This document shows, piece by piece, positions 12,742 to 34,140 of a stretch of 64,000 nucleotides of DNA. The DNA lies in the IMG/VR virus record IMGVR_UViG_3300009181_000033, positions 233,895 through 297,894 of that record. One strand, written 5' to 3'. Origin of the DNA: a virus. Position 1 is the first letter of the stretch. Every line of letters starts with the position of its first letter. The translations under genes and the position numbers were made by a program. A model generated the notes under the pieces. That model had not been told where the DNA came from. It saw only the letters and a list, made by a program, of their open reading frames with translations, and did not search any database.

Positions 12742-13725
12742 TCACTTGATAATTCCAGCCAGCTTCTGCCAACGCTCAACAACAACAGAGCCATCTCTCT
12801 GATAGCCCGAAGTCTGTTGTTTCTTTTTATCTCCCTTTTCACCAGTCAAAGCATTGACTTCGGGTGAATATGGGGGATTGATGTCCATTTTTCCTGATTC
12901 AATGTCTTTCTTCACTGCAGCCAACTCACTTGGCTCGATTGCCGGCATGTCAACCTTGGGCGGCATCCATCCTTCAACAGCCCTAGTGTCTGCTGTGGAG
13001 GCCCAATTTTCTTTGACATGTTCAGCTGCGGCCTCGAGCGTATCAAACCCATTAGCCTGGAATGCTTTAAGGATTTCTTCAGGCACAGGAAGGAACTTTC
13101 CTCCCTTGGAGGCCATCTCCACAAACTTATCTGCGACAGCTTCTGGTGTGAGTGAATCAAGATCAGTGTCAGAAGGCTTGCCTTTTCCACCGTGAGCAGC
13201 TGTCCAAACATTAAGAACACCAACCAATTGCTTGCCAGGAAGATCAATCTGCAAACCACCGACTGAAGCGCTGGGGTCAACCATCAGGGTGGCTGCCCAG
13301 CGATGATGGCCGTCCATGATGTGATTGTCATTAGAAATAATGGCCCCCAAATCACCACCAGCTCCGCCGCTGAAGCTTCCCATCTTACCCATCATTTGAA
13401 TGGCCATTCCAACAAATTTGCCAAAGTCCATGGTTGTTTGGGTTGCTCTCAAGCTGTCAGCAGGTGAATTTGTCTGGCCGCCGGAAGCAACATCGTCCTC
13501 GGCATCTTCGTCTTCTAGTCCTTTTGAAGCCAAGGCCTTTGCGATAGAAGGATCAACTTGACTCAGGTTCGTAGGGAAAAGACTAGGGTCAATTTTAGCA
13601 GGTGAAGCATCCTCAAACAACGACAAAAGAGAGCGAGAATGCCCCTTGGGGGAACGTATTTCCTTCAAAGCTTTTCTTGCTTCAGATGCTATCAAATTTC
13701 TCAGTTGTAATTCTGTCAATCTCAT
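12742..13725 (-). CDS. ParB-like domain protein with N-terminal tag and C-terminal RWxxLAGI tail
   Basis: A 327-residue protein. Residues 1-22 (MRLTELQLRNLIASEARKAL) form the short helix shared with five other proteins in this window. The central motif around residues 132-143 (NDNHIMDGHHRWAA) is the ParB/sulfiredoxin-type D-G-x-H-R signature, so a ParB-like NTP-binding or nuclease fold is likely. The last residues (VVVERWQKLAGIIK) match the C-terminus of the scaffold protein at 18459-20528. The start overlaps the stop of the upstream tagged gene by 4 bases. I infer a protein taken into the prohead. What the ParB-like domain does there is unknown. Confidence 0.7.
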   Translation of the reverse strand: MRLTELQLRNLIASEARKALKEIRSPKGHSRSLLSLFEDASPAKIDPSLFPTNLSQVDPSIAKALASKGLEDEDAEDDVASGGQTNSPADSLRATQTTMDFGKFVGMAIQMMGKMGSFSGGAGGDLGAIISNDNHIMDGHHRWAATLMVDPSASVGGLQIDLPGKQLVGVLNVWTAAHGGKGKPSDTDLDSLTPEAVADKFVEMASKGGKFLPVPEEILKAFQANGFDTLEAAAEHVKENWASTADTRAVEGWMPPKVDMPAIEPSELAAVKKDIESGKMDINPPYSPEVNALTGEKGDKKKQQTSGYQRDGSVVVERWQKLAGIIK

Positions 13726-14066
13726 TTCTTCTTTTCCTCTCCGTCCTCAGACGAAACCTTCTTCAAAACGTTCATGGCCTTAACAGTGTCCTCCGGAGAA
13801 GCCTGCATCAGCTTGGCAAAAATATCACCAAACACGGAATTGTCGAGGCTGTTTCTCTTTCCAGCCCGTAGATTGGAAACAGCGGTCTTCAACTTGCCAA
13901 CATCTGCTCCCAAAGCGTCTGCCATTTTTTTAATATCAACATTGCCTTCAACATCAGCGGTCTCGCCACCCACCTTTGTTGGGCCGGCCTCAAAAATATT
14001 GTGGAGAGTCATCTTTTGCTTTTCTGATTCAACTAATTTTCTCAAAAGTCTGGCCGTTAATTTCAT
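13722..14066 (-). CDS. Small protein with N-terminal packaging-type tag
   Basis: A 114-residue protein. The N-terminus MKLTARLLRKLVESEKQKMT matches the helix found in other head-locus proteins here and includes an L-V-E site of the kind cut by T4-type prohead proteases. The rest is small and helical (VDIKKMADALGADVGKLKTAVSNLR) with a charged tail. It is translationally coupled to the ParB-like gene through an ATGA-type overlap. No known family. Confidence 0.65.
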   Translation of the reverse strand: MKLTARLLRKLVESEKQKMTLHNIFEAGPTKVGGETADVEGNVDIKKMADALGADVGKLKTAVSNLRAGKRNSLDNSVFGDIFAKLMQASPEDTVKAMNVLKKVSSEDGEEKKK

Positions 14067-14087
14067 AAAAATAAATATTCAACAAAA

Positions 14088-14435
14088 TTAATTTTTTGGC
14101 CCGTGTGACCCTTTTTTTCGCAGCACCAACGGATTTTCTTTAACCAACCAAAACTCCTTGTCAATGGGCGGATCTTCCCCTTCACGAAACCACATCAACT
14201 TTCTACCGCCAGTAGATGCATAAACACCTATTATCGTTATGTGCCCCGCGTGGATCAGGTCGTGACAAGAGTGACAGACAATCGCAAGGTTTTCGTTATT
14301 GTTGGTACAGCGCGGATCACACCTGGGAATTATATGGTGGACATTGAGCGCATCAGGATTTGAAAAGTCACAGATCTCGCAACTATCCTTCAACAGACCT
14401 TCCTGTCCACTCCTCCTACGACTCTTTCGCTTCAT
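14088..14435 (-). CDS. HNH endonuclease
   Basis: A 115-residue HNH nuclease. The start is ATG 14435 (MKRKSRRRSGQEG) with an AGGTGA site upstream; the longer frame overlaps the previous gene. It has a zinc-binding Cys pair (C-E-I-C), then LNVHHIIPRCD as the HH core, then NENLAIVCHSCHDLIH as the N/H part with a second Cys pair. Members act as homing nucleases or packaging-associated nickases in phages. Here it sits beside another homing-type gene, away from the terminase. Confidence 0.85.
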   Translation of the reverse strand: MKRKSRRRSGQEGLLKDSCEICDFSNPDALNVHHIIPRCDPRCTNNNENLAIVCHSCHDLIHAGHITIIGVYASTGGRKLMWFREGEDPPIDKEFWLVKENPLVLRKKGSHGPKN

Positions 14436-14442
14436 GGGAAAA

Positions 14443-14907
14443 TCACCTGCCAGACATTGCAGCCTTAAAAACAAGACTGCCGATCGCATGGTGCCTGCCG
14501 TCCACCTGATAAAAGAGGTTCACGCCCTTCTCCAATGCCCACAGGATTAACCAATTTAATGTCTTAACATCAAGCTTGCTCCTTGCCTCGGCAACCTCGT
14601 AATGTGTCAAATCGGCGCGGGATGGAAGGACTATCTTGGATATAATGACACCCGACAAATCAGGCCTCATCCACTCCGGGAACACATCCGCCTCGACCCT
14701 CCAGGAACAGTTGTACGACTTGCATGTGTTGGGTCGACCCTCGTAGTCGGTGCACTTTCCACCAGCAAGAAAGAAACAAGGTCGACCAGGATACATCTGG
14801 TGCCCCTTTATATCGGCAGACAACCAGCCCTCACAACAACCCGTGCAAGGACCACAAGCACGAGAAGAATCTTGCAAAACAGGCAATGACGTCACTTTAT
14901 CTGTCAT
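14443..14907 (-). CDS. YkgJ-type cysteine-cluster protein
   Basis: A 154-residue protein of the YkgJ (CxxCxxCC) family: CGPCTGCCEGW near residue 18, then CFFLAGGKC and TCKSYNCSW. The Cys pattern binds zinc or an iron-sulphur centre in this family. Its exact cellular role is not established. The rest is a helical cap with EWMRPDLSGVIISK and ALEKGVNLFYQVDGR. It is seven bases upstream of the HNH gene. It is unusual in a structural gene block and may have come in with the neighbouring nucleases. Confidence 0.8.
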   Translation of the reverse strand: MTDKVTSLPVLQDSSRACGPCTGCCEGWLSADIKGHQMYPGRPCFFLAGGKCTDYEGRPNTCKSYNCSWRVEADVFPEWMRPDLSGVIISKIVLPSRADLTHYEVAEARSKLDVKTLNWLILWALEKGVNLFYQVDGRHHAIGSLVFKAAMSGR

Positions 14908-14992
14908 GCCACAATCATATGCGGTATTTCGAACTTGTCGATGGCCTCTCGAATATATTCTTCAAGTAACACTATTGACATGACATTAAATA

Positions 14993-16444: not shown

Positions 16445-16486
16445 GAACTAATAATTATATACTATTCTGCAATTGTAAAAAACAAA

Positions 16487-16513: not shown

Positions 16514-16544
16514 AATGAGTCATCCCTTCAGATGACGTTCAAGT

Positions 16545-18416
16545 TCAGATGACATTCATGTCGAGAACGGTGACGGTGCCGTAGAAGTCCGAGCGGACCA
16601 TCTTCTTGCCGTAGCGGGTCATCACACCCTTACGAGGTGTGAAATCCTCAGGCGCGAAGATTGTAGGGGTCACAATCAGGGGCACGTAAGGAGCGTAGAC
16701 GTATCCGGTCTCGAGGTAGCTGCCACCCTTGTAGCCGACGAGGATCTTGTTGCGAACGAAGTAAGGATCCTTGTAGACGGTGAAGCGGTTGGAGAGGGTG
16801 CCGATGGCCTCTGCACCGATGGTGAAGGGGCTAGCGACCTGGCCCTCGCCGTCCATGGAGAACTTGGGCTTGTAGAGAACTGAGCTCTCGAGGATGGTGG
16901 CGACATCGGGTCCGGTGACCATGAAGTTCGCAGAACCACGGAGTGTCTTGCGGTGGATGGTGTTGGCGACGTCGATGATGGTCTCGATGAGAGTCTCGTA
17001 CCACTCGCGGACGGTGCCTGTGAACTGAGGGCCGATCTGGTATTGGTCGGCTAGTGTTACGCGGCCACCGGTTGTCTTGTTGACGAAGCGACCGGGTGAG
17101 CGGCTCCAATAGTAGTTGGCGCCATTGGCTTGGCTGACTAGGTCGTTGAGGATCTCACGGTCGATCTCGAGGGCGATCTGCTCTGAGAGGATTGAGGTGA
17201 GCTCCACCTCGGCGTCCATGCTGTGGTACGCGTTGAGGTCCTGAGCGAGCTCGGGTGACCACTTGGCGCGTAGCTTGCGGGTCTCGGCGGTGATGCTGAT
17301 GGCCTCGATCTTGATGTCGATCTCTGGGATGACTGGTGAGGGGGTCGAGCCGAAGTCGGACTCGAAGGAGGGGACGGTGATGGTGGCACCGCTGGTGCTG
17401 TCCACGTTGAGCTTTTGGTCAAGAACGAATGTGAACTTGCCGGTAGCGGTGGGAGTAAAGGCAGCAACGCCGTTGGCACCCTTCACGAGCATGAGAACGT
17501 GAGTGCCGTTGAGGGCATTTGGTGTAAATGTGAAGGCCGAGTTGTCCCAGTCACCGCGCTTGTTGAGGCGGCGAAGGTTCTTGATGCCTGTGCCGCCTTG
17601 GTAGGTGTCGCCCCAGGCGTCGGCGCCGGTGATGCCGGCGTGGAGAGCGATCTGGTTGACGGCGAGGCGGTCAATGGTTGAACCGATTGAGTCAAGCTTG
17701 ACAATCTCGAACATCGCATCGAGCTGACCGAGGTCGAGCGCAGTCTCAACCTGGGCATCGAAGTCGGCGTAGCGGGCGTTAGAACCTGAGAAGTCGAGGG
17801 CTGATCTGAGAACGCCGCCTGCAACCCAAGCTCCTGTACCGCTCCATGAACCGGAGGCGGCGACAGAGGAGTTTGTGAGGTCGACTGTTAGGTTCGAGCC
17901 GGTAACGCGTGAGTAGCCGACGTTAACGAGGTCGTATTGGCCGCCGGTGGCTAGAGAGCCGCTCTGAACGCCTCTGCCGGTGGGGTTGTTGTAGATTGAC
18001 TGGCCACGGGTGTAGGTCGAGGTTGAGTCGGACCCTGGGACGCCAACATTGCTACCGTATGTGTAGTCGAGGTAGAAGATGAGGCCTGATGGGAGACTCA
18101 TTGGTTGAATTGAGACGAGCTCGTTGGCAACGAGGCCACCGAATACGCGGCGAACGATTGGGAACGCGATGTTGGAAAAGCCCTGGATCTGACCGGAGCC
18201 GGCGAGGTTGCCACCGCCGGTTGAAAGGCCATTGCTCTCCTTAAGGACCTGGGCAGCCTGGTTCTCTAGGAGCTGTCCCATCATCTCACGCTTCTGGCCG
18301 TCGAGGCCACGGAGGAGGCCTGTGCGGCTCCACTTCTCGGTGAGGCGTGCGCGCTCGGCACCGACGTGCTTCTCGCGGATGCCCTGAGCTAACTGATCTA
18401 AACTAAAATACTTCAT
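16545..18416 (-). CDS. Major capsid protein (gp23-like)
   Basis: A 623-residue major head protein. The N-terminus (MKYFSLDQLAQGIREKHV, then LLENQAAQVLKE) is helical and contains several L/I-x-E sites, fitting removal of a prohead-targeting propeptide. Conserved blocks follow: IQGFSNIAFPIVRRVFGGLVANELVSIQPMSLPSGLIFYLDY, then KLRAKWSPELAQDLNAYHSMDAEVELTSILSEQIALEIDREIL, then RGSANFMVTGPDVATILE. All are typical of the HK97-fold gp23 family of T4-type phages. It is longer than T4 gp23 (521 aa). The gene is much richer in G+C than most of the window, as is the adjoining part of the scaffold gene. It has its own strong terminator. Confidence 0.96.
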   Translation of the reverse strand: MKYFSLDQLAQGIREKHVGAERARLTEKWSRTGLLRGLDGQKREMMGQLLENQAAQVLKESNGLSTGGGNLAGSGQIQGFSNIAFPIVRRVFGGLVANELVSIQPMSLPSGLIFYLDYTYGSNVGVPGSDSTSTYTRGQSIYNNPTGRGVQSGSLATGGQYDLVNVGYSRVTGSNLTVDLTNSSVAASGSWSGTGAWVAGGVLRSALDFSGSNARYADFDAQVETALDLGQLDAMFEIVKLDSIGSTIDRLAVNQIALHAGITGADAWGDTYQGGTGIKNLRRLNKRGDWDNSAFTFTPNALNGTHVLMLVKGANGVAAFTPTATGKFTFVLDQKLNVDSTSGATITVPSFESDFGSTPSPVIPEIDIKIEAISITAETRKLRAKWSPELAQDLNAYHSMDAEVELTSILSEQIALEIDREILNDLVSQANGANYYWSRSPGRFVNKTTGGRVTLADQYQIGPQFTGTVREWYETLIETIIDVANTIHRKTLRGSANFMVTGPDVATILESSVLYKPKFSMDGEGQVASPFTIGAEAIGTLSNRFTVYKDPYFVRNKILVGYKGGSYLETGYVYAPYVPLIVTPTIFAPEDFTPRKGVMTRYGKKMVRSDFYGTVTVLDMNVI

Positions 18417-18458: not shown

Positions 18459-20528
18459 TCACTTAACAATGCCCGCGAGACGTGCCCAGCGCTCGGCCTC
18501 GAAACCTTCGTTGAGGTTCGTGGCGGCCGCACGGGGGGACGGACGCGAGGATGAACCAATGACTCCGTAGCTGGTTGACTCTGACAACTGCTTGGATGAG
18601 GTACCACGGAGTGCCTTGGTGAGGCTCTCGTACACAAGCTTGACTTCACGCTCATTGCGGGCCTCGTCGAGGCGCTCAATCACTTCGGCCTTCTGGCGCT
18701 TAGTGAGCGACTCATTCTGGAGGAGCTTGTTTGTGTAGAGTAGCTTAGCATTGAACAGATTTGTTTCTGCCAACTTAGCGCGGAGAATAGCGGCCTCCGC
18801 AACCGTTTTTCTGGTCTCGCCATTGATGACGTTACCTCTGCGGACAGCCTCTGTGAGCATGCCCTGGAGACGGCGGGTGCGCATCACCGACTCATTAAAC
18901 TTGCGAGCGTAGAAGTTGTAGGCCTCTTGCATCTTCTTGGCCTGCTTGGCCTTCTTCTGCTGCTCTTGCTTTGCCTTCTGGGCTGCGCCCTTCTGGCCTT
19001 TCTTCTGCTGTTCATTAGCCTGCTTCTCGGCCTGTTTGGCCTGGGACTCGGCTTGCTGCTTGCCTTTCTTGGCTTGTTGTGCCTTCTGCTTGGCCTCTGA
19101 CTGGAGACGGGCTTCGGCACGGAGATTGCGGCGGAGTGACTCTACAGTCTTGCCGGGTTCGTTTGACTGATCGCTGGGCTGCTCGGTGTCAGCGCCGTGC
19201 TCGGCGTCCTCGCCGTGGGCCTGATAAACCTGATCGAGCTCATCGAGCTCATCGAGCTCATTTGCGCTCTTGTCATCAGTGTGCTTGGAGGCGTGGGACT
19301 CTTCCTCGTCTTGGCCTTCGGTTGTGAGGTCGATGTCGACGAATGGATCGCCAAGGTCATCATCCTCGAAATCATCGGAAACATCGCCTGGGCCATGGCC
19401 CCAGCTCTGTGCCTTGGTCTCCGCCTCTTCACGGAGGGCTCTCATGCGACCAATCTCGCGGCGTAGCATGTTTTCATCAATCTCAACGACAACATCATTA
19501 CCAAGTCCGTGTGATTCCATTGTAGCTCCTTCTAAATCAAGATCTTCGTCTTCATCTTCTCCGCCTTCGACCTCTTCATCTCCACCGAGATCAAGGTCTT
19601 CCCCGCCTTCATCTTCCCCGCCTTCGGCCTCTTCATCTCCACCGAGATCAAGGTCTTCCCCGCCTTCATCTTCCCCGCCTTCTTCACCTTCGGCCTCCTC
19701 ACTGGGTGGCTCTGTGATCAAATCGACACCAATGTCGTCAAGGCTATCCTCGAGCTCGTCGGGTAAGTTGGTTAGCTTGAGTGTGAGTTCTGATTCAGAC
19801 AAATTTCTTCTATTTCTTTTCATTTTCTGCTCCGTGAGCTTGGTAAGGGTTGAATAACAATCTTTCAAAACCTTCAAATTCAGCTGTTTTTTATGCGAAT
19901 TGTCAGTGTTTTCGTTTAAGTGCTTATACATATCGCGAACTTTAGCAATAGTTGCAGAAAGACGATCAGAATATCCTCTGGATTCTCTAATTATTTTTCC
20001 GGCGCCTCTCAAAAGTTTGACGTTCTGTACAATGGATCGAATACTAGATTCGATAACTACACTTTTCTTTGATGACATGAGCATACCTAATTTTTCAGCT
20101 GCCTCCCTGCTCAATTCGTATTCTCCAGAAGGGGTTCTTAAAGCATCTAAATCCAAAGTCACTTTCCCTTCTTCATCGGGCATTGATATTGCATCAGCAA
20201 TGGCATCATGGGTCCCGAGTGCCACACTCGAATCAAGTGGAACATCATCAAAATCATCGACAGACGAACCTGCCGGCAGAGCTGTGTCATCTATTGCAGA
20301 CGCAGCTGCTGCAGTCTCAGGAAATTCGTCCATAAGCAGTTTTTCATTGTTGGCCTCAGACTCCTCAGAATTCTCAGCCTCAGAGCTCTCACCAAGCAAT
20401 TGGTGTTCTATGAGATCACGAATACGAGGCGTCACTGCCTCCAGCAAGGCTCTTTTGGCGTTATCTTCTGCCACTTCTTTTAATTTTTTAACATCGGCCA
20501 ACGCCTCTTCATAAAGCTGCTTAGACAT
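18459..20528 (-). CDS. Prohead scaffold/core protein (gp22-like)
   Basis: A 689-residue acidic protein directly upstream of the capsid gene, the place of T4 gene 22. The N-terminus ADVKKLKEVAEDNAKRALLEAVTPRI is a long amphipathic helix. The middle has E/D/G-rich repeats (19-residue unit, residues about 285-325) and a Lys/Gln/Ala coiled coil (QKAQQAKKGKQQ region, about 470-540). The last residues FEAERWARLAGIVK match the C-terminus of the ParB-like protein at 12742. It is over twice the length of T4 gp22 (269 aa). Base composition changes sharply near 19790: the capsid-proximal part is GC-rich, the 5' part AT-rich. The scaffold role is inferred from position, charge and coiled coil. Confidence 0.8.
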   Translation of the reverse strand: MSKQLYEEALADVKKLKEVAEDNAKRALLEAVTPRIRDLIEHQLLGESSEAENSEESEANNEKLLMDEFPETAAAASAIDDTALPAGSSVDDFDDVPLDSSVALGTHDAIADAISMPDEEGKVTLDLDALRTPSGEYELSREAAEKLGMLMSSKKSVVIESSIRSIVQNVKLLRGAGKIIRESRGYSDRLSATIAKVRDMYKHLNENTDNSHKKQLNLKVLKDCYSTLTKLTEQKMKRNRRNLSESELTLKLTNLPDELEDSLDDIGVDLITEPPSEEAEGEEGGEDEGGEDLDLGGDEEAEGGEDEGGEDLDLGGDEEVEGGEDEDEDLDLEGATMESHGLGNDVVVEIDENMLRREIGRMRALREEAETKAQSWGHGPGDVSDDFEDDDLGDPFVDIDLTTEGQDEEESHASKHTDDKSANELDELDELDQVYQAHGEDAEHGADTEQPSDQSNEPGKTVESLRRNLRAEARLQSEAKQKAQQAKKGKQQAESQAKQAEKQANEQQKKGQKGAAQKAKQEQQKKAKQAKKMQEAYNFYARKFNESVMRTRRLQGMLTEAVRRGNVINGETRKTVAEAAILRAKLAETNLFNAKLLYTNKLLQNESLTKRQKAEVIERLDEARNEREVKLVYESLTKALRGTSSKQLSESTSYGVIGSSSRPSPRAAATNLNEGFEAERWARLAGIVK
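19561..19690. repeat. 57-bp tandem repeat inside the scaffold gene
   Basis: Two nearly identical 57-bp units (19561-19617 and 19618-19674) and the start of a third encode the 19-residue acidic unit containing GGEDEGGEDLDLGGD. The frame is preserved. Confidence 0.9.
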
Positions 20529-20585: not shown

Positions 20586-21101
20586 TTATTTTGAATCACC
20601 AAAATTAAGAAATGTTCCATCTTCAGAAATTGGATTAGCTATTACATTTGCAGATGGATTAGCTGTGCCGCCTGAACCAATTGTTAAATTTGGCTTATAC
20701 GATGAAGCACTTAGCGCGGCATCATCTGCATCTGAATCTGGCAAAGACCAAGAGCCGGCCCCAGGTGATCTTAGATCGGGCATGTAAGGGTTCGCTGGAA
20801 AGCCGATCGAGAGGCTCTCCGTCTTCTTTGGTCTAGAAACGGATGTTAAATCAGGAACTGTTTCTTTAGCGATGGTCCTGGGGTTTGTCGACCAAAGGCC
20901 TTGATCGAAATCATTTAAGTGACTTAAAGCAGTAGATCGGGCAGCCCGGGCAGCATCCTCCGGTTTTTCGGAGGAGGAATAAAAATCACCAGCAGCAACT
21001 TTATCATTAAAGAGGCCTTTTAAGCGCAGCCATTTTTGAGCGCCTTCAGTTGACCTATATGGTATATAGTCGATGTATCTGCCTGAACCCGGGATGCCCA
21101 T
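20586..21101 (-). CDS. Small head-locus protein, duplicate A
   Basis: A 171-residue protein, paralogue of the next gene upstream. Shared blocks are GRYIDYIPY at the start, the WSTNPR and ETVPDLTSVSR segments, GFPANPYMPDLRSPG and SYKPNLTIGSGGTANPSANV near the end. It is Pro/Ser/Gly-rich and looks extended rather than globular. The position between the scaffold and the tagged small genes suggests a head-associated protein such as a decoration or core component. No known family. Confidence 0.65.
   Translation of the reverse strand: MGIPGSGRYIDYIPYRSTEGAQKWLRLKGLFNDKVAAGDFYSSSEKPEDAARAARSTALSHLNDFDQGLWSTNPRTIAKETVPDLTSVSRPKKTESLSIGFPANPYMPDLRSPGAGSWSLPDSDADDAALSASSYKPNLTIGSGGTANPSANVIANPISEDGTFLNFGDSK
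20629..20714. repeat. 86-bp direct repeat, copy 1 (copy 2 at 21162-21247)
   Basis: Identical 86-bp stretches 533 bases apart code for the same C-terminal segment in the two duplicate genes. The rest of the two genes is much less alike, which suggests gene conversion or strong constraint here. Confidence 0.9.
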
Positions 21102-21109
21102 CTATAACC

Positions 21110-21646
21110 TCAAGATTTTTTTGTAGAAGATCCCTTGACCAAAACGGGGGTTGCTGCAACAATTGGATTAGCTATTACATTTGCAGATGGATTAGCTGTG
21201 CCGCCTGAACCAATTGTTAAATTTGGCTTATACGATGAAGCACTTAGTGCGTCATCACCTGAATCTGGCAAAGACCAATTGTCGCTTCCTGGACCACCAG
21301 AAGAACCAGGTGATCTCAAGTCAGGCATGTAGGGGTTTGCTGGAAAGCCTGCCTTGGCTGCGGTTGGAGCTGAGGCTCTAGAAACGGATGTTAAATCAGG
21401 AACTGTTGCAGCCGGATCTTTCCTTGGATTTGTCGACCAAGTCTCTGGATCAAAATCCCCAGAGAGGTTGGCGTAATTCGTCCTAATGCCGGTGGCAACT
21501 GTGGTGAGATCATCGCCGGCATAAACACTTCCAACATCTGCTTGGGAGCTCTGGTTATTAAAAAGTCCTTTAATTTTATCGTAAATAGCCTTAGATCTTG
21601 GTTCTTGTGGCACGTACTTTGTGTATCTTCCTGTTCCTACCGACAT
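21110..21646 (-). CDS. Small head-locus protein, duplicate B
   Basis: A 178-residue paralogue of the adjoining downstream gene, eight bases away. It has the same GRYTKYVPQ start, IKGLFNNQ, WSTNPR, VPDLTSVSR, FPANPYMPDLRSPG and TIGSGGTANPSANVIANPI blocks. An 86-bp stretch (21162-21247) is identical to 20629-20714, so the pair arose by tandem duplication with recent sequence exchange. Role unknown, probably structural. Confidence 0.65.
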   Translation of the reverse strand: MSVGTGRYTKYVPQEPRSKAIYDKIKGLFNNQSSQADVGSVYAGDDLTTVATGIRTNYANLSGDFDPETWSTNPRKDPAATVPDLTSVSRASAPTAAKAGFPANPYMPDLRSPGSSGGPGSDNWSLPDSGDDALSASSYKPNLTIGSGGTANPSANVIANPIVAATPVLVKGSSTKKS

Positions 21647-21671: not shown

Positions 21672-21917
21672 TCAAATGTTTCCACGGAGACGACGGCGTG
21701 TTTCAGCTATTCTTGCGAGACGACGGCGTAATCTTGTCTCCTCAATTTTTAATGCCTTCATGTAATCAATTGTTTTTTCTAAAGCCTTTTCGCTCCCAAC
21801 CTCGCCTGCATCAAGCTCCTCTGTGTCCTTGGCACGATCCTCAGTGGACTCCATATCGCCAAACTTGGAGACCTCCTGGAGTATGATTTTACGAAGCATG
21901 GTATTTGTCAATTTCAT
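21672..21917 (-). CDS. Small protein with N-terminal packaging-type tag
   Basis: An 81-residue protein. The start MKLTNTMLRKIILQEVSKFG is the shared tag helix, including an L-Q-E site. It is followed by an acidic stretch and a basic helical end (EETRLRRRLARIAETRRRLRG). The acid-then-base layout resembles small prohead core proteins such as T4 gp67, gp68 or the internal proteins, but no direct homology is claimed. A clear GGAGAG ribosome site precedes the ATG. Confidence 0.65.
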   Translation of the reverse strand: MKLTNTMLRKIILQEVSKFGDMESTEDRAKDTEELDAGEVGSEKALEKTIDYMKALKIEETRLRRRLARIAETRRRLRGNI

Positions 21918-21972: not shown

Positions 21973-22386
21973 TTATTTCTTAAGAGAAGAACCCATAAAA
22001 GCAAGTTCTGCCCACTTTGAAGTCACTTCTTCTCCAAAGATTTCATTGGGTTCAGCTGAGGCCAATGCTTGTTCGACTAAACCACCAGCTTGAGAAGTAA
22101 ATTTGCCCTTTGTATCTCCTTCAAGCATTTTTGGAAGTGTGGATGCAGCAGTGTCAGCCAAAATCATTTCCATTATTTTGTTTCCCCCCGACTCCTTTTT
22201 TATGGCATTAGAAAGATAAGGTGTTATTTTTCTTTGGGGTTGTTGTAAAGCACTTGAAGTTGTGGACTTGGTAGAATGAATAACCTGATTTCCTCGTGAG
22301 GAATTTGGCGAGCCTATTCCTTCGCTAAGTATTTCAACCAAACATTCCTTTACAATATTTTTTAATTCAAATTTTGACAATTTCAT
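21973..22386 (-). CDS. Head-locus protein with N-terminal packaging-type tag
   Basis: A 137-residue protein. I start at ATG 22386 (MKLSKFELKNIVKECLVEIL) with AAGGAGAT upstream; an adjoining TTG would add one residue. The N-terminus is the shared tag and holds L-V-E and L-S-E sites. The middle is Ser/Gln-rich and flexible. The C-terminal half is helical (NKIMEMILADTAASTLPKML). It lies directly downstream of the protease gene. A packaged or core protein is inferred. Confidence 0.65.
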   Translation of the reverse strand: MKLSKFELKNIVKECLVEILSEGIGSPNSSRGNQVIHSTKSTTSSALQQPQRKITPYLSNAIKKESGGNKIMEMILADTAASTLPKMLEGDTKGKFTSQAGGLVEQALASAEPNEIFGEEVTSKWAELAFMGSSLKK

Positions 22387-22410: not shown

Positions 22411-23022
22411 TCACTTCCTTGTGGCCAATATGTCATTAATGATTCTGTCAATTCTATCAGATTTGTTAAAAACTTTTCTTAATTCAAACGAATTAATTGT
22501 TTTCCCCTCAGGAAGCATAAAGGCTCCAGGAGTAGAGGGCTCAGAAACGTAGTCCCAACATATCAATTGAAAATCATCCTGAACGATGTGATAATCTCCT
22601 TGTTTTTTTGTGGAACCGACTCCCCTAGAAGATATTCCCAGCTTGACACCTGATTCCACCAAGGACTGCAGTATCTTTCCTGATGGTGTGTCCAGAAGCT
22701 CCACTGTCCCATAAACAACCCCCTTTTCAAGATGAGCTTCTTTGACTATGTGAGAAACATTCTTGAGGTTGACGACAGAAGAATCTGGGTGATCCAATTC
22801 GCCGAGGGCCCTATTTTCAGAAATAAACTTTTGATAATTTCTAATTTCTCTCTCGAGAACGGCAGTGGGATATATCCTTCCATTTTGGTTCAAGGTGTCT
22901 GATTTTTGAAGGATGCCCTTCATGACAACCTTGCCACCATTCTTCTCACGAGATTCTTTGATCATCTCGGGAGTATAGTCAAAAACTTCATACGAATTTA
23001 GAAGCCTTAAATCTTGTCCCAT
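22411..23022 (-). CDS. Prohead core protease (gp21-like)
   Basis: A 203-residue serine protease of the T4 gp21 (S77-like) family. Diagnostic blocks are LNQNGRIYPTAVLEREI, then ALGELDHPDSS with the catalytic His (about residue 78), then VKLGISSRGVGS with the catalytic Ser (about 131), and WDYVSEPSTPGAFM. The enzyme is activated inside the prohead, cuts scaffold and capsid propeptides after L/I-x-E sites, and then degrades itself. The length is close to T4 gp21 (212 aa). It lies between the portal/core genes and the scaffold and capsid genes, as in T4. Confidence 0.93.
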   Translation of the reverse strand: MGQDLRLLNSYEVFDYTPEMIKESREKNGGKVVMKGILQKSDTLNQNGRIYPTAVLEREIRNYQKFISENRALGELDHPDSSVVNLKNVSHIVKEAHLEKGVVYGTVELLDTPSGKILQSLVESGVKLGISSRGVGSTKKQGDYHIVQDDFQLICWDYVSEPSTPGAFMLPEGKTINSFELRKVFNKSDRIDRIINDILATRK

Positions 23023-23025: not shown

Positions 23026-23883
23026 TTACTCCTTCGACTCCAATTCCTCTTTTAATCTGGAATATAACATAAATCTGGTAACGGTTGAATCGTCCACGTC
23101 TCCCAAGTTTTCTTGAATTAGGCACGATTTAACTTCATCAAGTTTGCTCTTCACATACTCGTTCTTTTGATCCTCGGTCTCGTATTGCTCTATGAGCTCC
23201 AATAAATTATCCTTGGCTTCATGTAGCTTCATCTTGATTGATGACATATCGTCAGAAGCAGTTGAAAAAGCGTACGCCCTTATGAGACTCTTCTGTTGTT
23301 CATTAAGCACAGAATCGTATTTTTCATTCAACTTCTTTGTCATAACCTTCATCAGCAATCTCGCTGAACCATTTGTGTCCTCGGTTATTGTTTGATCGAC
23401 AGGGGCTGACTTTTCAGTAACTAACCACTTCATCAATTGATCTTCATATTGTGCCATCTTCAAGAGATCTTTATTGGGAGATCTCCATTCATTCATCAAT
23501 GTTTGAATTGTGGCAAGCGCTCTATATTCATTAACATGTTGATCATAAAAATTATCATCATTAATGACGTGATTAATGTGCTTGATCAACAATGACTTTT
23601 CACGATCGATTGCTGCGTGATTCATGGACACAGCGGCAGACTTCGCTTCCCTGAGGATTGAGGCAGCCACGTGCTCGGAAGAAACAGTTGTCTTTACCAA
23701 AGAATTAATTAAACGAAATTCTTTATAAAGATTAGTTCCTGGTTTGTAGTGCCTCTTAAGGATCCTAAGGGCACCAGCAGACCTCTTTTTGTCATCCTCT
23801 ATCAAAGATTTTGAAATGGTCCTTACCAAGAACTCATAAAGAAGCATTGAATTTCTTTTCTTATTATGGTTCCTTCCGCTCAT
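23026..23883 (-). CDS. Hypothetical helical protein of the prohead-core locus
   Basis: A 285-residue, mainly helical protein between portal and protease, where T4 keeps the core genes 67 and 68. It starts MSGRNHNKKRNSMLLYEFLVRTISKSLIEDD and includes charged helices (LYKEFRLINSLVKTTVSSEHVAASILREAKSA), ending FMLYSRLKEELESKE. Its ATG overlaps the portal stop by 4 bases. No catalytic motif. A core or portal-assembly role is inferred from position only. Confidence 0.65.
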   Translation of the reverse strand: MSGRNHNKKRNSMLLYEFLVRTISKSLIEDDKKRSAGALRILKRHYKPGTNLYKEFRLINSLVKTTVSSEHVAASILREAKSAAVSMNHAAIDREKSLLIKHINHVINDDNFYDQHVNEYRALATIQTLMNEWRSPNKDLLKMAQYEDQLMKWLVTEKSAPVDQTITEDTNGSARLLMKVMTKKLNEKYDSVLNEQQKSLIRAYAFSTASDDMSSIKMKLHEAKDNLLELIEQYETEDQKNEYVKSKLDEVKSCLIQENLGDVDDSTVTRFMLYSRLKEELESKE

Positions 23884-26800
23884 TTGTCACTCCCATCATT
23901 GATAAATACTTCTTCATTTTCATTTTCTTCTTCGAAATTTTCTGTAAGGGTTCGAGAATTTTGTTTCTGGCGTTGACCATCCATCATGTGTTGGAACTTT
24001 GGTGACATCGTCATTCTGCGAAGAGATGATGCAACATCACTCCCCATCATTGTTTTATGAACCCTAGATTCACCAAATGGATTTCCTAAATATGAATTCA
24101 TAAAGTCTTTGTCATAAGGATCAGACATTGATTTGGAATCGTGGCTCGTCATTTTTGCAAAATCAGGCTCATGAATCCTCGATGCACTATTGTGTTTTAT
24201 TCTTGCCCTGTTTCTAAGAACTCTGTCAAGTTGTTTTTGTGCCTTGACTGGGACAGTCACATCCTTTAAGCCGCCAAGCTTGACTGGGTAATCTTCTTCG
24301 TCGTCCGGATCATCGCCAGCTGTGATAAGATCAAGCTTGGGAGATTTTTGAATTGGATCGTCACTAGCGAATAGGTCACCGCCACCTTCTTCATCACCAC
24401 CGCCTTCATCGCCTCCGCCCCCAGCGGCATCACCAGAATCAACATCATCACCGCCCGAATCTTCTGGTTTGGCAGCCTCAATTGTTGCATCGATCATCTT
24501 TTCCTTAAGTCTCTGCTCGTCGATGGCGGCGATCTGTTCAGCGCTCAATCCCCATATTTCTTTACGAATAAATTCCTTGCTCATTTGACCTTCGGGGGCT
24601 GAGCCGGCTATCTCAAACTTCGCCCTCCAGAGCTCAAGCTTCTGTTGTTGTGCAATTGTTGAAGGGTTACTAAGTCTAAGGGTGAAGTTTTGAAGATCCT
24701 CTGAGTCAAATCCATTGGCATATAAATGAATAATTGCCAATTTGTTAAGCTCTGATATCATTGTCTTCTGAATGACATTGATAGTCCTGGAGAATCTAAT
24801 GTCTTCCTGTGCCAAAGTCGCCTTGCTGGAAAGGGCTTCGTCATAACCGAGATACGCTCTCGGTATCTTGAGCGCGGCGAACAACTTCTTTTGTATATAA
24901 GCAACGTCCTCTACGGCGGCTGCATTTTGACCGCCGGCCAAGGTGTCAATCTTGGTTCCTGACTCTCCACCGCGAACAGGAATGAAGTAGTCCTCATCAA
25001 CAGAAAGCGGATTATACCTCAAATCGACCCTGCCTGTTGTTCTATCAACAACCTGACTTGACCTAAGATTCTTCTTCTGTTCCTCGACGTACATCGGGAC
25101 ATTTTCCGGAGGAATATTAGCGACATCAATATAGAAAACCCTTCTCTCCGGCGCACGAACAACACGATAAACAAGCATGGCGTCCTCGATAAGGATGAGC
25201 TGGCGCCATATGCGGCGGGCAGGTTCGATGACAGAAGAACCGTAAGGAAGGAACATGTCATTGCCAAGAAGTCTGAAGTGTGTCACTTCCCAGTTTTCGA
25301 GCGTTCTATTCCCAAGAGTAACCCAGCGATATCGAACTGCCATGGGATCATTTGGATCATAATTCTCTTCTCGCTCTATCTCATTAACTGGAATTGGAAA
25401 GGCATTGATGACGCCATGTGTAGGCGAAACATCATTATAAAGAAACATGTCGCCGTATTTAACAAGGTTCCTGACCCAGGAGCGAAGATTGAACTCGACA
25501 TTTAATGTATTATAAAAGAGATCTTCTAAGATCTCCCTTATTTTTTCATTATCAGAATAAATGTGGAGTACTCTTCCTTTTTCATCTTGGGCACAAGTCT
25601 CATCTGCGTATATGTCAAGTGCTGCGGCGAGCTCGGGAGTATTGTGCGAAATGACAGTGTCTGTGGCAAAATTCTTGTATCCATCGACCGTTAAATCAAA
25701 GAGAGGAATGACACCATGATACTCAACAGATGCGACCTTGAGATTTTCATAATTGCTGGAGAAGTCCGTGTAATTCTTGTATCCATTGTCTTTTAATCTT
25801 TTCGAAACAATTTCAACAGAGGTGCCTAAAGAAGCAGCCAATTGTGACCTGGACATGCCCTTAGAAAAGGCAGAACAAATCTTATCGAATGTTAATGATT
25901 TAATATAACGTGGATTATTCCCACCATCATTATCCCATCCTGCATTGTGCCAATCTGGATTGTAGGCACGAGCAAAGGTCTCAAAGTTTTCGTATCCATG
26001 CTTTCGAAGTCTACGTTTGATGACGTTCGGATCTGTATCGAGCACCTCACACATCTTACGTGAGTTAAATCCAACTCTTTCGGCGATCTCGAGAATTCTA
26101 CCAAACGTAATGTCTTTACGCTCAGCAGGATTGTTTTCTGTCATAAACTTAGAATGATTGACTTTAAATTGTTGAATCCATTCAGAGTTTTGCTCGGACC
26201 ACTTGGCACCATTTAAGATTTTTGAGTGTAATTCTAGGTGGGCTTTTTCTGTCATCACCTGCAGATTTTCAGGCCTATTGTCGTGCTTGATGAAGTTGCA
26301 ATGATGCACTACTTCACCGTCAATCAGAGGTGAACCTTTCAACATTTCCCCAATGACTCTATGCTCTGCAACCCATCCATTCGTTTTGGAACGACGGTCC
26401 ATTGTGTAGATCCAGCGATAACCTTCACCGTCTTCCTTACAGCCATTGAAGAGATCTCGACGATAGAATGGCATCATTGCATCACCTGCCTTAAGATCTT
26501 CTATCTTACAGAAGGTGCCATCACGCTTCATAAGTCGGTGATTAGGAGTGCCGATTATTTTTTGACCATTATCGAATGTGACAGTGTATGCAGCATCGAC
26601 ACGTGTTTGACGAGCCTGTTTCCCAAAAGCGGGGACGATGCGACCTAAATTGTGATCATAGGCATACACCAAGAAAGTATGCTCCGGGTTGCTTTCGCAT
26701 TCCTGGGCCAGTTCTAAAACTGTCTTGTAACCCCCAGGAACTGCTATCTTTGTATCACCGTGAAGGCAATACTCCATCTCTCCGAAATCTTGATAACGCA

Positions 26801-27008
26801 TGAGGCGCTCGGAAAGATTATATGCATTTGCTGTAATCGTGGCATATGTGGGAGCCATCGATTTTTGGAAAAGCAAAGCGCCGCTGCTCTTTGTTTTATC
26901 AGCAACGGCTATTGTTGTGTCTAGATTTCTAAGCTTTCTTCGTACTACCGGCCCACTCCTAAAAAGCTTAGTTAATTTCTGAAATAAATTCTCGTTTTCT
27001 TTTGCCAT
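23880..27008 (-). CDS. Portal protein (gp20-like) interrupted by an intein
   Basis: A 1042-residue precursor. Residues 1-80 and 457-1042 form a 666-residue T4-type portal: PTYATITANAYNLSERLMRYQDFGEMEY, then TPELAAALDIYADETCAQDEKG, DMFLYNDV, EVTHFRLLGNDMFLPYGSSVIEPARRIWRQL, EDYFIPVRGGESGTKIDTLAGGQN and KIPRAYLGYDEALSSKATLAQEDIRFSRTI. Residues 81-456 are an intein with its own HNH nuclease. The extein C-terminus is long, with acidic G/E/D-rich runs. The portal forms the dodecameric vertex ring that starts head assembly and docks the terminase. The intein sits at a conserved spot before ELAAALDIYAD, and splicing is needed to make a working protein. Confidence 0.95.
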   Translation of the reverse strand: MAKENENLFQKLTKLFRSGPVVRRKLRNLDTTIAVADKTKSSGALLFQKSMAPTYATITANAYNLSERLMRYQDFGEMEYCLHGDTKIAVPGGYKTVLELAQECESNPEHTFLVYAYDHNLGRIVPAFGKQARQTRVDAAYTVTFDNGQKIIGTPNHRLMKRDGTFCKIEDLKAGDAMMPFYRRDLFNGCKEDGEGYRWIYTMDRRSKTNGWVAEHRVIGEMLKGSPLIDGEVVHHCNFIKHDNRPENLQVMTEKAHLELHSKILNGAKWSEQNSEWIQQFKVNHSKFMTENNPAERKDITFGRILEIAERVGFNSRKMCEVLDTDPNVIKRRLRKHGYENFETFARAYNPDWHNAGWDNDGGNNPRYIKSLTFDKICSAFSKGMSRSQLAASLGTSVEIVSKRLKDNGYKNYTDFSSNYENLKVASVEYHGVIPLFDLTVDGYKNFATDTVISHNTPELAAALDIYADETCAQDEKGRVLHIYSDNEKIREILEDLFYNTLNVEFNLRSWVRNLVKYGDMFLYNDVSPTHGVINAFPIPVNEIEREENYDPNDPMAVRYRWVTLGNRTLENWEVTHFRLLGNDMFLPYGSSVIEPARRIWRQLILIEDAMLVYRVVRAPERRVFYIDVANIPPENVPMYVEEQKKNLRSSQVVDRTTGRVDLRYNPLSVDEDYFIPVRGGESGTKIDTLAGGQNAAAVEDVAYIQKKLFAALKIPRAYLGYDEALSSKATLAQEDIRFSRTINVIQKTMISELNKLAIIHLYANGFDSEDLQNFTLRLSNPSTIAQQQKLELWRAKFEIAGSAPEGQMSKEFIRKEIWGLSAEQIAAIDEQRLKEKMIDATIEAAKPEDSGGDDVDSGDAAGGGGDEGGGDEEGGGDLFASDDPIQKSPKLDLITAGDDPDDEEDYPVKLGGLKDVTVPVKAQKQLDRVLRNRARIKHNSASRIHEPDFAKMTSHDSKSMSDPYDKDFMNSYLGNPFGESRVHKTMMGSDVASSLRRMTMSPKFQHMMDGQRQKQNSRTLTENFEEENENEEVFINDGSDK
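25641..26768 (-). mobile_element. Intein with HNH homing endonuclease in the portal gene
   Basis: A 376-residue intein. It starts with Cys (CLHGDTKIAVPGGY, N1 splicing block), has the TPNHR block (residues 154-158 of the precursor) and ends VISHN with the +1 residue Thr. An HNH nuclease lies in the middle (GEVVHHCNFIKHDNRPENLQVM, then HLELHSK). Two tandem helix-turn-helix repeats follow (TFGRILEIAERVGFNSRKMCEVL and TFDKICSAFSKGMSRSQLAASLG), probably for target-site binding. All residues needed for splicing (Cys1, block-B His, penultimate His, Asn, +1 Thr) are visible, so it looks active. Confidence 0.93.
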
Positions 27009-27051: not shown

Positions 27052-27372
27052 TTACACTATTTTCTCGCCAGCACCAGTTGACTTAAGAGTAACTTTCTTG
27101 CCTTTCGATTGCGGCGGCTGGGTGGTGTCGACATACTGCATTGGAGAACCGATTATCCTATTGAGCAACTTCTCCAAATCCTCCAAAAGTTTGCCCACCT
27201 CAGCTTTTGCTTTGACGCTAGCGTCATTCTTAAATGTCTCAACAGCCCCAAGTAATTTTGTAGCACTTGACATTTGCTTGGAGGCAGCATTGTGATCTTC
27301 GCCTTCATTTAACTTCGTGGCGAGTTCTTCTCTGATGATTTTTTTTAGCCTGTCTAATTCAATTTTTGGCAT
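27052..27372 (-). CDS. Small protein with N-terminal packaging-type tag
   Basis: A 106-residue protein between terminase and portal. The N-terminus MPKIELDRLKKIIREELATK is the shared tag, followed by KLNEG with I-R-E and L-N-E sites. The rest is helical (ATKLLGAVETFKNDASVKAKAEVGKLLEDLEKLLNR) with a flexible C-terminus. A TATAAAAACT box ends 13 bases before the ATG. Probably another internal or core protein; no family recognised. Confidence 0.65.
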   Translation of the reverse strand: MPKIELDRLKKIIREELATKLNEGEDHNAASKQMSSATKLLGAVETFKNDASVKAKAEVGKLLEDLEKLLNRIIGSPMQYVDTTQPPQSKGKKVTLKSTGAGEKIV

Positions 27373-27404: not shown

Positions 27405-29033
27405 CTAACGGTATAACCAAGAAAAATCTGTGACATCGGCATGTTTAATTTCTGATGAATCTCTTGGTTTCATAATCTGTTGCGGTGTGTATCCCATGGA
27501 ATGTGTGCTTATCACAGGTCTCACACTATTAATTCCACCAGGTAAATCAGCATAAGAATGATTACCTTTTTGTGTTGCCTTCAACATGGCCATAGCCATA
27601 TTCATGCCTTGCTCATTGTAACCAGAGTCGCCGGCAACAAGCCAAGAGCCAATGGCAACGCTCATTATGAGATCGTCATGGGCGTCTTTTGCAGCTTGAG
27701 CCTTGGAACCGTTCCAAACGAAGGCCTGGAATTGGTCATACAATCGCTGCGAGTGGGACACCAGTCGACCATTCCTTATCAATTCTTCAAGTTTTGCCAG
27801 TATTTGATTCCTGGTTTTAAGCTGTGTGGAGAAACCAGGAATTGCATCTGGGTCAGTTGATTTATACTCAAATACGTCACCTTGAGTCCCTTGGTAGTAC
27901 AACTTTGGGTAACCCATGTCTCTAAGTTTAACACAAGTAAAATAGCCAAAGGTGTTTTGCTCCGGGCATATGAGGGCATCGTTATACATTCTTCCATATT
28001 CGGCCAAAACGTCGGCAAATTTGTCGGGAGGTATTTTCCCCATAAATTCGGCACAGACTTCACAAGATTCGTGATCTATAATGTGAAAGGTTGAAAAATC
28101 GGCAGCATCTCCCCTGGCAATATCTGCAGAAAGAACATACTTTTTGCCGACTTCAGGATTTCTCCATATCCAAACCCCATTTTGATGTCCAACTTTTTGT
28201 ATTGGTGGACTAATCAGTTCGCGTAATCTCTCCAAGTCATTTGGCTGCAAGAATGTGTCACCTGAAGAAATGAAGTCACAGAGGAACTCTTGGGCCACTT
28301 TGCGCTTAGGAAGATTCTTCGTTTCCTTGTCGAACCACTCTTGATCGTGCTCAGGGTGTGTCCACCACAGAAGTCTAATTGGATTAAAATCATTTGAACC
28401 TGATTCGGCACCAACCCAGAGTTTATAGTATTGACCTCCCACACCATTTGGGGTAGACAATATGATTGCAGAACCACCGGTAGAAAGGGTGGGATACAGT
28501 GAAGTCCAAATTTCATCGAAGTCTCTAATAAATGCTGCCTCGTCAACGATTAATAAAGCCAATGCCTCTGATCGACCAGCGTCTGGGGAAGTTGGAACTG
28601 CCGTTATGGTCGACCCATTGGTGAACCTAATGGCTTGTTTTGTTGGCTCAAATTTTGTAAGCAAAAGCCAGGGAGGAAGTCCATCGAGCATCGTCTTCAC
28701 TTTTTTAATGAAGTTGATGGCCGTTGCAAGCTTGGTCGCAATAACAAGTATGTTTTTATCCTTCTTGAAGATTGCATACCAAACACAATAGGCAGCCGAG
28801 ACCGTTGAAAGTCCAAGCTGCCTTGATTTGAGAACTATGTTAAATCGATGTTCTTGAAAAGCTTTGACACAATCATCTTGAAAATCGTAAGTATCAAAAG
28901 GTATGAGCCCCCTCAGCTGGTGTTGGATCTTGCAATACTTCTTCATAAAGTATGAAGGATCTTTTCCGCATTTGATTATCTCGGCAACCTGTTGTTGCCG
29001 AGATAATGTGGGAGTGCTCGGTATTTTACTCAT
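27405..29033 (-). CDS. Terminase large subunit (gp17-like)
   Basis: A 542-residue packaging motor. The ATPase has the variant Walker A KSRQLGLST (residues 69-77), Walker B ALLIVDEAAF (159-168) and the coupling motif ILSTPNG (191-197). The RNase H-like nuclease has its first acid at SADIARGD (D304), the second at ICPEQN and the third in the DAHDDLIM region. It is close in size to T4 gp17 (610 aa). It cuts and pumps DNA into proheads through the portal. Its stop lies close before the tagged small gene. Its start overlaps the upstream gene by 4 bases. Confidence 0.96.
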   Translation of the reverse strand: MSKIPSTPTLSRQQQVAEIIKCGKDPSYFMKKYCKIQHQLRGLIPFDTYDFQDDCVKAFQEHRFNIVLKSRQLGLSTVSAAYCVWYAIFKKDKNILVIATKLATAINFIKKVKTMLDGLPPWLLLTKFEPTKQAIRFTNGSTITAVPTSPDAGRSEALALLIVDEAAFIRDFDEIWTSLYPTLSTGGSAIILSTPNGVGGQYYKLWVGAESGSNDFNPIRLLWWTHPEHDQEWFDKETKNLPKRKVAQEFLCDFISSGDTFLQPNDLERLRELISPPIQKVGHQNGVWIWRNPEVGKKYVLSADIARGDAADFSTFHIIDHESCEVCAEFMGKIPPDKFADVLAEYGRMYNDALICPEQNTFGYFTCVKLRDMGYPKLYYQGTQGDVFEYKSTDPDAIPGFSTQLKTRNQILAKLEELIRNGRLVSHSQRLYDQFQAFVWNGSKAQAAKDAHDDLIMSVAIGSWLVAGDSGYNEQGMNMAMAMLKATQKGNHSYADLPGGINSVRPVISTHSMGYTPQQIMKPRDSSEIKHADVTDFSWLYR

Positions 29034-32902: not shown

Positions 32903-32913
32903 GCATGCTTAAA
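32894..32913. promoter_or_regulatory. 20-bp perfect palindrome over the gp47-gp46 start codon
   Basis: A perfect inverted repeat with core AAGCATGCATGCTT spans the ATG (32902). It includes a second ATG four bases upstream in another frame. It could act as an operator or form mRNA structure that limits translation. Nothing else explains it in the 41-bp gap. Confidence 0.4.
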
Positions 32914-32943
32914 CTACCCACCATTAGCCTAAATGTACAAAAA

Positions 32944-34140
32944 TTAAGCCTTGCTCAAAGCACGTGCGCCGGCGCCGAGGGCCCGTGTGCCAAGGCTGGC
33001 TATTTCGCCGGCCGAGGAGCCCATTTCAGCACCCATCGATCCCAATTCTCCGGCCGTACTCATTGCCTTTGAAGCAGCTTTTCCGGCAGCCAAGGCACCA
33101 TGAGCAGCATCCTTTAACGAAGCAAAGACTTGACCCAATGTTTCACCCAAGTGCATAAAGGCACTGATCAACATGGGAAGAAAGAGGGCAACTTTTAAAA
33201 CCTTGAAAATTGCATCTTTTTCCTTGGAAGAAATTTCAATCTCATGGCCATGTGAATCCTTGCCTTTTTCTTTCTTTGTGAAGTCAGCATAAGATATTGG
33301 CTTTTCTTTCTTAAAGACCTTGGCAAAAGCATAGTAAGCAGCGTACTGTGCCTGGGGTGGGAAGGCGGTAACCTCGAGCCACTTTGATTCCACAGAATGA
33401 AGGAAGTGTTCTATTTTTTCACAAATTTTACTAGCCTTATCAAGGCCAAATTTTCTTAGTGTCCAAACCAAGAGCTTAAGAGCAAAAATACCCAGACCAA
33501 GATAACCAACAACTGCTGTCTGTACAGCCCACCACGTGGTGGCCAAGGATGCGACCCCCGTCAGGACAGCAATCTCATGTAGTCGGCTCTTCTTGTTTTT
33601 TTCGATGGCCTCGAGGAGTTGATCCAATTGCTCCTCCAGAAACATGGAATTCTGGGAGAATTCCCCGTGCATAATCGATTCATTTTTGGCAGGGACTGCT
33701 GTAGCGATCTCTTTCTCGATATCAATAGACTTAATCTGTTCAAAACCAGCATTGATCTTAGCTAGTTCAGGAACAGTGGCCATGATTTGTTCTACGCTAG
33801 TGCCAGACTCTTCCAAGGCTTCCGTGAATTTTTTGACATCGCCTATAATGTCAAGGCTTTGAAGTGATTGCACAGCCTTGTTCAACTTCGCAATAATTTC
33901 TTCTGCCTTGGAAGCTATTTCTTTCTTTACTTTTTCACCGAGCCCCTTGAATGGTTGCTTTATGGCATCCAAAAATCCTTCATTAACAAGGTATTCTCTC
34001 GCCAATTCTTCACGTATCATTCTCCTCAAGCTACTTTCGCTGATTGAAAGTCTGGTCCCGCCAATATGCACGGGTTGGTTGAACACGATTTGTCTTGAAG
34101 AAGCTCTCTTTTTCATATTCGTAAATATGATGAATCTCAA
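32944..34140 (-). CDS. Tagged protein with hydrophobic segments, probably internal virion protein
   Basis: About 398 residues. After a short basic lead, residues about 33-55 (SISESSLRRMIREELAREY, then LVNEG) carry the shared tag with I-R-E sites. Then come a charged helical region, two or three hydrophobic segments (ATTWWAVQTAVVGYLGLGIFALKLLVW; VALFLPMLISAFMHLGETLG) and an Ala/Gly-rich tail. This fits a protein carried in the head and delivered to a membrane. The TTG at 34140 overlaps the primase stop; ATG 34116 (MKKRASSRQ) is the likelier start, though neither has a good ribosome site. No family recognised. Confidence 0.6.
   Translation of the reverse strand: MRFIIFTNMKKRASSRQIVFNQPVHIGGTRLSISESSLRRMIREELAREYLVNEGFLDAIKQPFKGLGEKVKKEIASKAEEIIAKLNKAVQSLQSLDIIGDVKKFTEALEESGTSVEQIMATVPELAKINAGFEQIKSIDIEKEIATAVPAKNESIMHGEFSQNSMFLEEQLDQLLEAIEKNKKSRLHEIAVLTGVASLATTWWAVQTAVVGYLGLGIFALKLLVWTLRKFGLDKASKICEKIEHFLHSVESKWLEVTAFPPQAQYAAYYAFAKVFKKEKPISYADFTKKEKGKDSHGHEIEISSKEKDAIFKVLKVALFLPMLISAFMHLGETLGQVFASLKDAAHGALAAGKAASKAMSTAGELGSMGAEMGSSAGEIASLGTRALGAGARALSKA

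Follow-up and report, generated by a model that had tools for sequence, protein, structure and literature searches.

A short N-terminal helix as a probable capsid-targeting and processing signal on unrelated proteins of large T4-type phages

Introduction

The internal proteins of phage T4 have diverse bodies, and only their capsid-targeting sequence (CTS) is conserved (PMC3012670, PMC9026906). Within the CTS, targeting depends on residues 4 and 7, and processing on residues 8 and 10 (PMC9026906); IPII and IPIII start MKTYQEFIAE↓A, that is, phi4-xx-phi7-I8-x-E10, with phi for a hydrophobic residue. In phages of the SPN3US/phiKZ type, many internal, ejected proteins are cut by the prohead protease after a motif reminiscent of the rule of T4 gp21 (PMC7411985). 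Here we analyzed bases 233,895–297,894 of the 297,894-bp uncultured virus record IMGVR_UViG_3300009181_000033 (IMG/VR), a stretch of 64,000 nt that we call the window, together with related phage genomes and contigs. Six otherwise unrelated genes of the window, named here by their lower coordinates (12742, 13722, 21672, 21973, 27052 and 32944), encode a common N-terminal helix, the tag. This helix is with good probability a capsid-targeting and processing signal that works as in T4 while differing in sequence, in its larger extent and in being exchangeable between classes.

We distinguish three classes of tag, with the consensus sequences MK[IL]TxxQLRRIIREE (tag 1, that of the window), M[NK]LLREYIRELLxE (tag 2) and MKLLxENWRxFLxE (tag 3). 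All are 14 residues long and follow the pattern phi8-xx-phi11-[IL]12-x-E14, its four positions being spaced as residues 4, 7, 8 and 10 of the T4 CTS. As on T4 IPI, IPII, IPIII and Alt, a short N-terminal element ending in [IL]xE, of equal hydrophobic register, is found on diverse proteins, and the genome likewise encodes a gp21-type S77 protease, a scaffold in the gp22 position, gp23 and gp20. The tag sequence is not MKTYQEFIAEA and only the phi-xx-phi-[IL]-x-E register is common; we therefore filed the tag as CTS-like and not as a homolog of T4 internal proteins. T4 also has about four such genes, whereas here there are tens, with tandem arrays, at least three exchangeable classes and acidic bodies. 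The SPN3US/phiKZ type resembles it in having ejection proteins with N-terminal propeptides and a site rule for the prohead protease, but those propeptides exceed 100 residues, no common short tag has been described for them, and the SPN3US major capsid protein is cut after ATE. A third likeness is to the T4 core proteins gp67 and gp68, whose small genes adjoin protease and scaffold; in T4, gene 21 immediately follows genes 67 and 68, whereas the conserved tagged pair described below comes after the protease, the proteins being compared by their termini only. The tag system is best described as a capsid-targeting system of the T4-like kind, of new sequence and much greater extent.

Results

Six tagged genes in the window

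All six ORFs (open reading frames) of the first-pass annotation were found as open frames, with the tag at the ATG or one residue off in five of them. The annotation had called their bodies unrelated, and Pfam assigned them no credible common domain. A hidden Markov model (HMM) built exclusively from tags of other viral contigs ranked exactly these six at the top of the 405 window ORFs (17.3, 14.5, 12.2, 10.4, 10.0 and 6.5 bits; next ORFs 5.1 and then 1.0 bits), which rules out a chance set. The L/I-x-E sites reported in the tag region are present after or within the tag in all six. Equally sound is the gp21-like protease reported at 22411: the product of 22411..23022 (−) matches the S77 family PF03420 at 6e-25 (88.3 bits against a gathering score of 27) and phrog_207 at 2e-49, and is the presumed processing enzyme of the tagged proteins.

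The cargo candidate 12742..13725 (−, 327 residues) carries its tag on residues 1–22 (13725–13660) and has a predicted cut after E38, LFE↓D (codon 13614–13612). Six orthologous copies keep the tag and vary in the linker, and in all six [LI]xE stands directly before the DAxPxKID body (LFE, LLE, LLE, IFE, LRE and IFE); that L/I and E stay fixed as the middle residue drifts reads as the gp21 rule. The earlier description of this protein as ParB-like found no support: it goes back to a DGHHRWAA motif picked by eye, and neither Pfam families nor PDB sequences gave any match, ParB/Srx included. An AlphaFold model from the six orthologs was too poor (mean predicted local distance difference test score 37) and was discarded.

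The neighboring cargo gene 13722..14066 (−, 114 residues) has the tag MKLTARLLRKLVESE (14066–14022), a predicted cut IFE26↓A27 (E codon 13991–13989) and, 12 nt upstream of the gene, the sequence ATATTTAT; its homolog L537 has LAE↓A at the matching body boundary, behind a longer linker. Two small core-type proteins are encoded next to the protease. That of 21973..22386 (−, 137 residues from its ATG), directly after the protease, has the tag MKLSKFELKNIVKE, a predicted cut EILSE22↓G23 and the C-terminus KWAELAF, and in its family L[SAV]E↓G is kept, with a variable middle residue, in five genomes and L190. The product of 21672..21917 (−, 81 residues; tag MKLTNTMLRKIILQE), between protease and scaffold, has a syntenic tagged gene in five of five genomes. 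Between terminase and portal lies 27052..27372 (−, 106 residues; tag MPKIELDRLKKIIREE; predicted cut KLNE23↓G24). The tag of 32944..34140 (−) is delayed, RLSISESSLRRMIREELAREYLVNE↓GF at about 34053–34006, and the start is uncertain: the tag lies about 6 residues past GTG 34071 and about 30–45 residues past the other candidates, ATG 34116 and TTG 34140. Tagged proteins of G015 and L139 have an xEGF/LF element resembling that of 32944.

Occurrence of the tag across phages

Tag 1 is carried by 17–18 genes of the 298-kb genome. The first-pass placement of the tagged genes around the head genes holds for the six in the window; the tag is not confined there, about 11–12 more lying at record positions 47–87, 165, 192–195 and 214 kb. 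The profile search over genome and relatives that the annotation had proposed, run with an HMM of this genome's own tags, gave 136 matches of at least 8 bits among the ORFs of five phage genomes and none in shuffled ones. Tag loci were then gathered from IMG/VR by a DNA pattern for MKITxxQLRRIIREE and a looser pattern, yielding 152 tag-bearing loci with 529 tags, 515 of them at a start codon (no hits of at least 10 bits among shuffled ORFs). Three relatives of 267–293 kb have 28–39 tagged genes each and a 187-kb relative has seven, and in relatives as many as 20 small, unrelated tagged genes follow one another without a break. Such genome-wide tags and arrays rule out a restriction of the system to neighbors of head genes.

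The looser pattern found only seven contigs of metagenome-assembled genomes in 84,980 cellular species genomes; one of the seven matches an IMG/VR contig in length, and another, of 306 kb, carries tag arrays. Because of this near-absence we regard the tag as a phage feature, and a cellular family is ruled out. A tblastn search of phage records with the consensus of tag 3 gave nothing relevant, and the tag peptides were not found printed in the literature searched. Some tagged proteins are very short (about 40–57 residues; L022, L088:13174–13302 and L105:16017–16148) and end in LIGHT or IIGHT after a PFG[ST]G stretch.

Most bodies were without any match. Among 121 tagged proteins of the five genomes, scans against Pfam and PHROG placed at most one (Pfam) or two (PHROG) members in any family; to the extent that the two libraries can show it, the bodies have no relationship to one another. 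A few bodies on tags 2 and 3 resemble enzymes, with matches to RelA/SpoT-type HD domains, P-loop/Zeta-toxin-like kinases and HAD-like hydrolases, and more weakly to 2'-5' RNA ligase-like (2H) and acetyltransferase domains; these would suit, rather than prove, counter-defence or takeover enzymes. Two tag-2-like proteins have the RelA/SpoT-type HD domain HD_4 (L088:6729–7559, −; L066:4493–5107, +), possibly as an alarmone hydrolase carried as cargo. The bodies are small (median 106 residues) and acidic, with a net charge of −0.066 per residue.

In five of five genomes, two tagged genes stand 3' of the protease gene (directly or one gene later) and before the scaffold-position gene; the uncultured 484-kb phage LR756508 has a similar order, S77 followed by a gene starting MRLSGRKLKKLVIEELRGVLSEA. 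These most conserved tagged genes thus occupy the neighborhood of T4 genes 67 and 68, and small, acidic bodies are likewise a feature of T4 gp67, as expected if tagged proteins were prohead core proteins of the gp67/gp68 kind, which give the head its shape and are broken down instead of being delivered. Core proteins should, however, be few and conserved, whereas the arrays consist of fast-changing genes and differ among related phages; in addition, some bodies on tags 2 and 3 match enzyme-like domains of the kinase, HAD and HD types. As an account of the tag as a whole we find this very improbable; it is probably true of 21973 and 21672, and not of the arrays.

Exchange of tags on homologous bodies

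In the five genomes, some 36 genes of larger size begin with tag 2; they cluster near tag-1 arrays, for example in G003 (L063, L077), in G018 (L103) and at positions 77128, 112134, 167477 and 169177 of the record studied here. Tag 3 is widespread in viral contigs (L416–L494, L107, L123, L197, L207). The same small body occurs behind all three tags in three phages, as VKITKLQLRRIIAE↓AIDLDIEKGDVILTGRFKNKRTIVK, MKHLREYIRQILLE↓SISLDVDVGDVILTGRFKNKRTIVK and MKKLLTEWRKYLNE↓MKLDIKVGDVLLGGRFKNKRIIVK. Altogether, 610 cross-class pairs of homologous bodies formed 25 body clusters, five with all three tag classes, and in 11 of the 25 the homologous part starts, in both partners, no more than 10 residues from where the tag ends. 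The 1079 tagged ORFs fall into 555 body clusters, 394 of them singletons. Searches of phage records with the exchanged bodies turned up either a single uncultured record or no match. No other finding argues as strongly as this exchange on homologous bodies for the tag being a separable signal whose end is the functional boundary.

The same data bear on a simpler history, in which the tagged genes arose by duplication from one ancestral gene and the helix is merely the part that changes most slowly, with no targeting role. Duplication accounts for the tandem arrays, and would suit the many near-identical tags within one genome, but not for three classes of tag on homologous bodies with homology beginning near the tag end, for the number of distinct body clusters, or for a specific protease motif at varied spacing (see below). 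Tag exchange largely refutes this history, and we consider it very improbable.

Protease rule and S77 co-occurrence

Among 510 non-redundant tags, [LI]xE at residues 17–32 is 2.4-fold enriched over shuffles (z 18) and present in 53%, with E at varying positions (18, 19, 21 and 22); in untagged genes of the five genomes, 16% have [LI]xE at residues 17–30. The same tags show no enrichment over shuffles for [LI]xD, [LI]xQ, [LI]E, VxE, FxE, MxE or AxE, a residue specificity that rules out generic helix composition. E14 completes an in-tag [LI]xE in 93%, which we left uncounted as evidence because the search patterns partly select it.

An S77 protease is encoded in all 26 tag-bearing viral contigs of at least 140 kb (tag 1, 10/10 and 8/8; tags 2 and 3, 8/8). 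Among contigs of 48–130 kb it was found in 22 of 46 with tags, compared with 1 of 21 random contigs of 35–110 kb (p 6e-4), counts that are not fully independent because some contigs are closely related. That the tag instead directs proteins to another destination or fate (membrane, tail, replication compartment, host target or degradation), with [LI]xE a by-product of helix periodicity, would be in keeping with an amphipathic basic helix as a generic targeting element and with a mild enrichment of [LI]xxE (1.5-fold), but is highly unlikely given that periodicity would prefer neither E over D or Q nor L/I over V, M, A or F, that [LI]xE is fixed at the body boundary of orthologs with differing linkers, and that the tag is associated with S77 and has the register of the T4 CTS.

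A C-terminal element common to scaffold and cargo

The gene 18459..20528 (−) encodes what is, by its position, a gp22-like scaffold/core protein, ending in ERWARLAGIVK (18462–18494), and cargo 12742 ends in the similar ERWQKLAGIIK (12745–12777). [DE]RWAxLAG[IL] closes the scaffold-position protein in five of five genomes, and its counterparts in the two cultured relatives end in RWQKLAGIIK and RMKKLAGIVK. Beyond scaffolds, this type of ending is present on 12742, on its orthologs and on a small number of further large proteins (14 of 1792 genes against 0.2 expected); further loci are L002 26592–27833 and L001 23870–24970. RWxKLAGI-type elements also occur at N-termini, then followed by [LI]xE, as in G018 (NRWCKLAGILQE) and Flavobacterium phage immuto (RRMQKLAGIITE). 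Candidate N-termini of immuto are MKKQILSEQFRRMQKLAGIITE and MENNFDIHKWQAKFLKE. We infer that the C-terminal RWxKLAGI is a core-binding element common to scaffold and cargo.

Upstream motifs

A T4-type late promoter, TATAAATA, was considered and dropped, not being generally present upstream of head genes; the tentative ATA[TC]TTA took its place. In the five phage genomes, ATA[TC]TTA[TAG], a candidate late motif, repeatedly precedes genes for portal, sheath, neck and scaffold, and the early-type GTATAAT (GGTATAATA) repeatedly precedes other regions. The nearest upstream motif is of the late type in 49 of the 53 tagged genes that have any and in 531 of 798 untagged ones (49:4 versus 531:267), a bias that is only suggestive because array members share one promoter. 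The first-pass annotation had held that finding the motif equally in early, non-virion regions would speak against a capsid signal. Tags do lie outside the head region; none is on a recognized replication or metabolism gene, and the late-type motif is favored.

Head module and other features of the window

Scans with Pfam and PHROG placed a T4-type head module in the window, all on the minus strand. The major capsid protein gp23 (16545..18416, −; PF07068 1e-76) has a predicted delta-domain cut QVLKE60↓S61 (E codon 18239–18237), and the delta-type region of the capsid protein ends in L[KR]E↓[SA] here as well as in G015, G003 and G018. A big extra stretch of gp23, at about residues 130–340, lies ahead of the conserved C-terminal part. 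G003 has two major capsid protein genes side by side, both of full length and with products identical at either terminus (L071–L072; 176269–178167 and 178261–180150). The portal gene gp20 (23880..27008, −; PF07230 2e-74) is interrupted by an intein (PF14890 4e-12) that bears an HNH homing-endonuclease domain. The large terminase gp17 (27405..29033, −; phrog_2 2e-52) has its closest cultured counterparts, about 41% identical, in Microcystis phage Mel-JY01 and Flavobacterium phage immuto. Between tagged core gene and scaffold lie two neighboring paralogs, 20586–21101 and 21110–21646, with a common C-terminal half (ALSASSYKPNLTIGSGGTANPSANVIANPI), and ORF 11658–12323 has a long QD/ED repeat (DQDQDQDEDEDEDED).

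Discussion

The first-pass proposal of a common signal for loading into the prohead core, with L/I-x-E processing, is supported by features legible in the sequences: a tag that sits at the start codon and recurs across more phages, specific [LI]xE, co-occurrence with S77, tags swapped where the cut is predicted, core-type tagged genes kept between protease and scaffold, and the register of the T4 CTS. From these we infer core binding, cleavage, presence in the virion, injection and function in the host. In the mechanism that we propose, the amphipathic 14-residue tag (M-x6-phi-xx-phi-[IL]-x-E) would bind the scaffold core during prohead assembly, so that the attached protein is trapped inside the prohead. 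As the prohead matures, the S77 (gp21-like) protease would cut after [LI]xE, either where the tag ends or at a second site slightly further along, and free the mature protein within the head, from which, by analogy, it may enter the next host together with the DNA. With bodies interchangeable and tags swapped too, a lineage could maintain an extensive, rapidly changing stock of small cargo proteins, many in tandem arrays, which would presumably be counter-defence and takeover factors.

Several points weigh against capsid targeting. Most tagged genes lie far from the head genes, and their bodies are acidic, in contrast to the basic character described for the internal proteins of T4. Some 47% of tags lack [LI]xE at residues 17–32 and would depend on the in-tag site. 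Tag relatives have common ancestry, so that neither the enrichment nor the S77 counts are fully independent, and the random contigs of at least 140 kb available as a control numbered two, too small a sample. The assignment of ATA[TC]TTA as late promoter is tentative. Among 50,697 phage records, tblastn with the consensus tag found no close match to tag 1 except in one uncultured 484-kb phage, and for tag-1 phages we came upon neither a virion proteome nor data on N-terminal sequences or expression. The literature searched likewise offered no virion proteome of Flavobacterium phage immuto.

We see about an even chance for a broader proposition, that T4-type marine phages run a modular cargo-loading code, in which several interchangeable 14-residue tags and the C-terminal RWxKLAGI mark dozens of quickly replaced, unrelated proteins per phage for packaging, release by the protease and injection, a large arsenal for counter-defence and takeover delivered before any gene is expressed. 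If the capsid-targeting reading is right, a 14-residue signature readable in raw sequence would single out, among the many unknown genes of large phages, those whose products travel in the head and are injected immediately, and would allow candidate anti-defence and host-takeover proteins to be listed directly across many uncultured phages. The tags would also be new, short candidates for capsid-loading tags, and the few internal proteins of T4 would be a small case of a much larger strategy.

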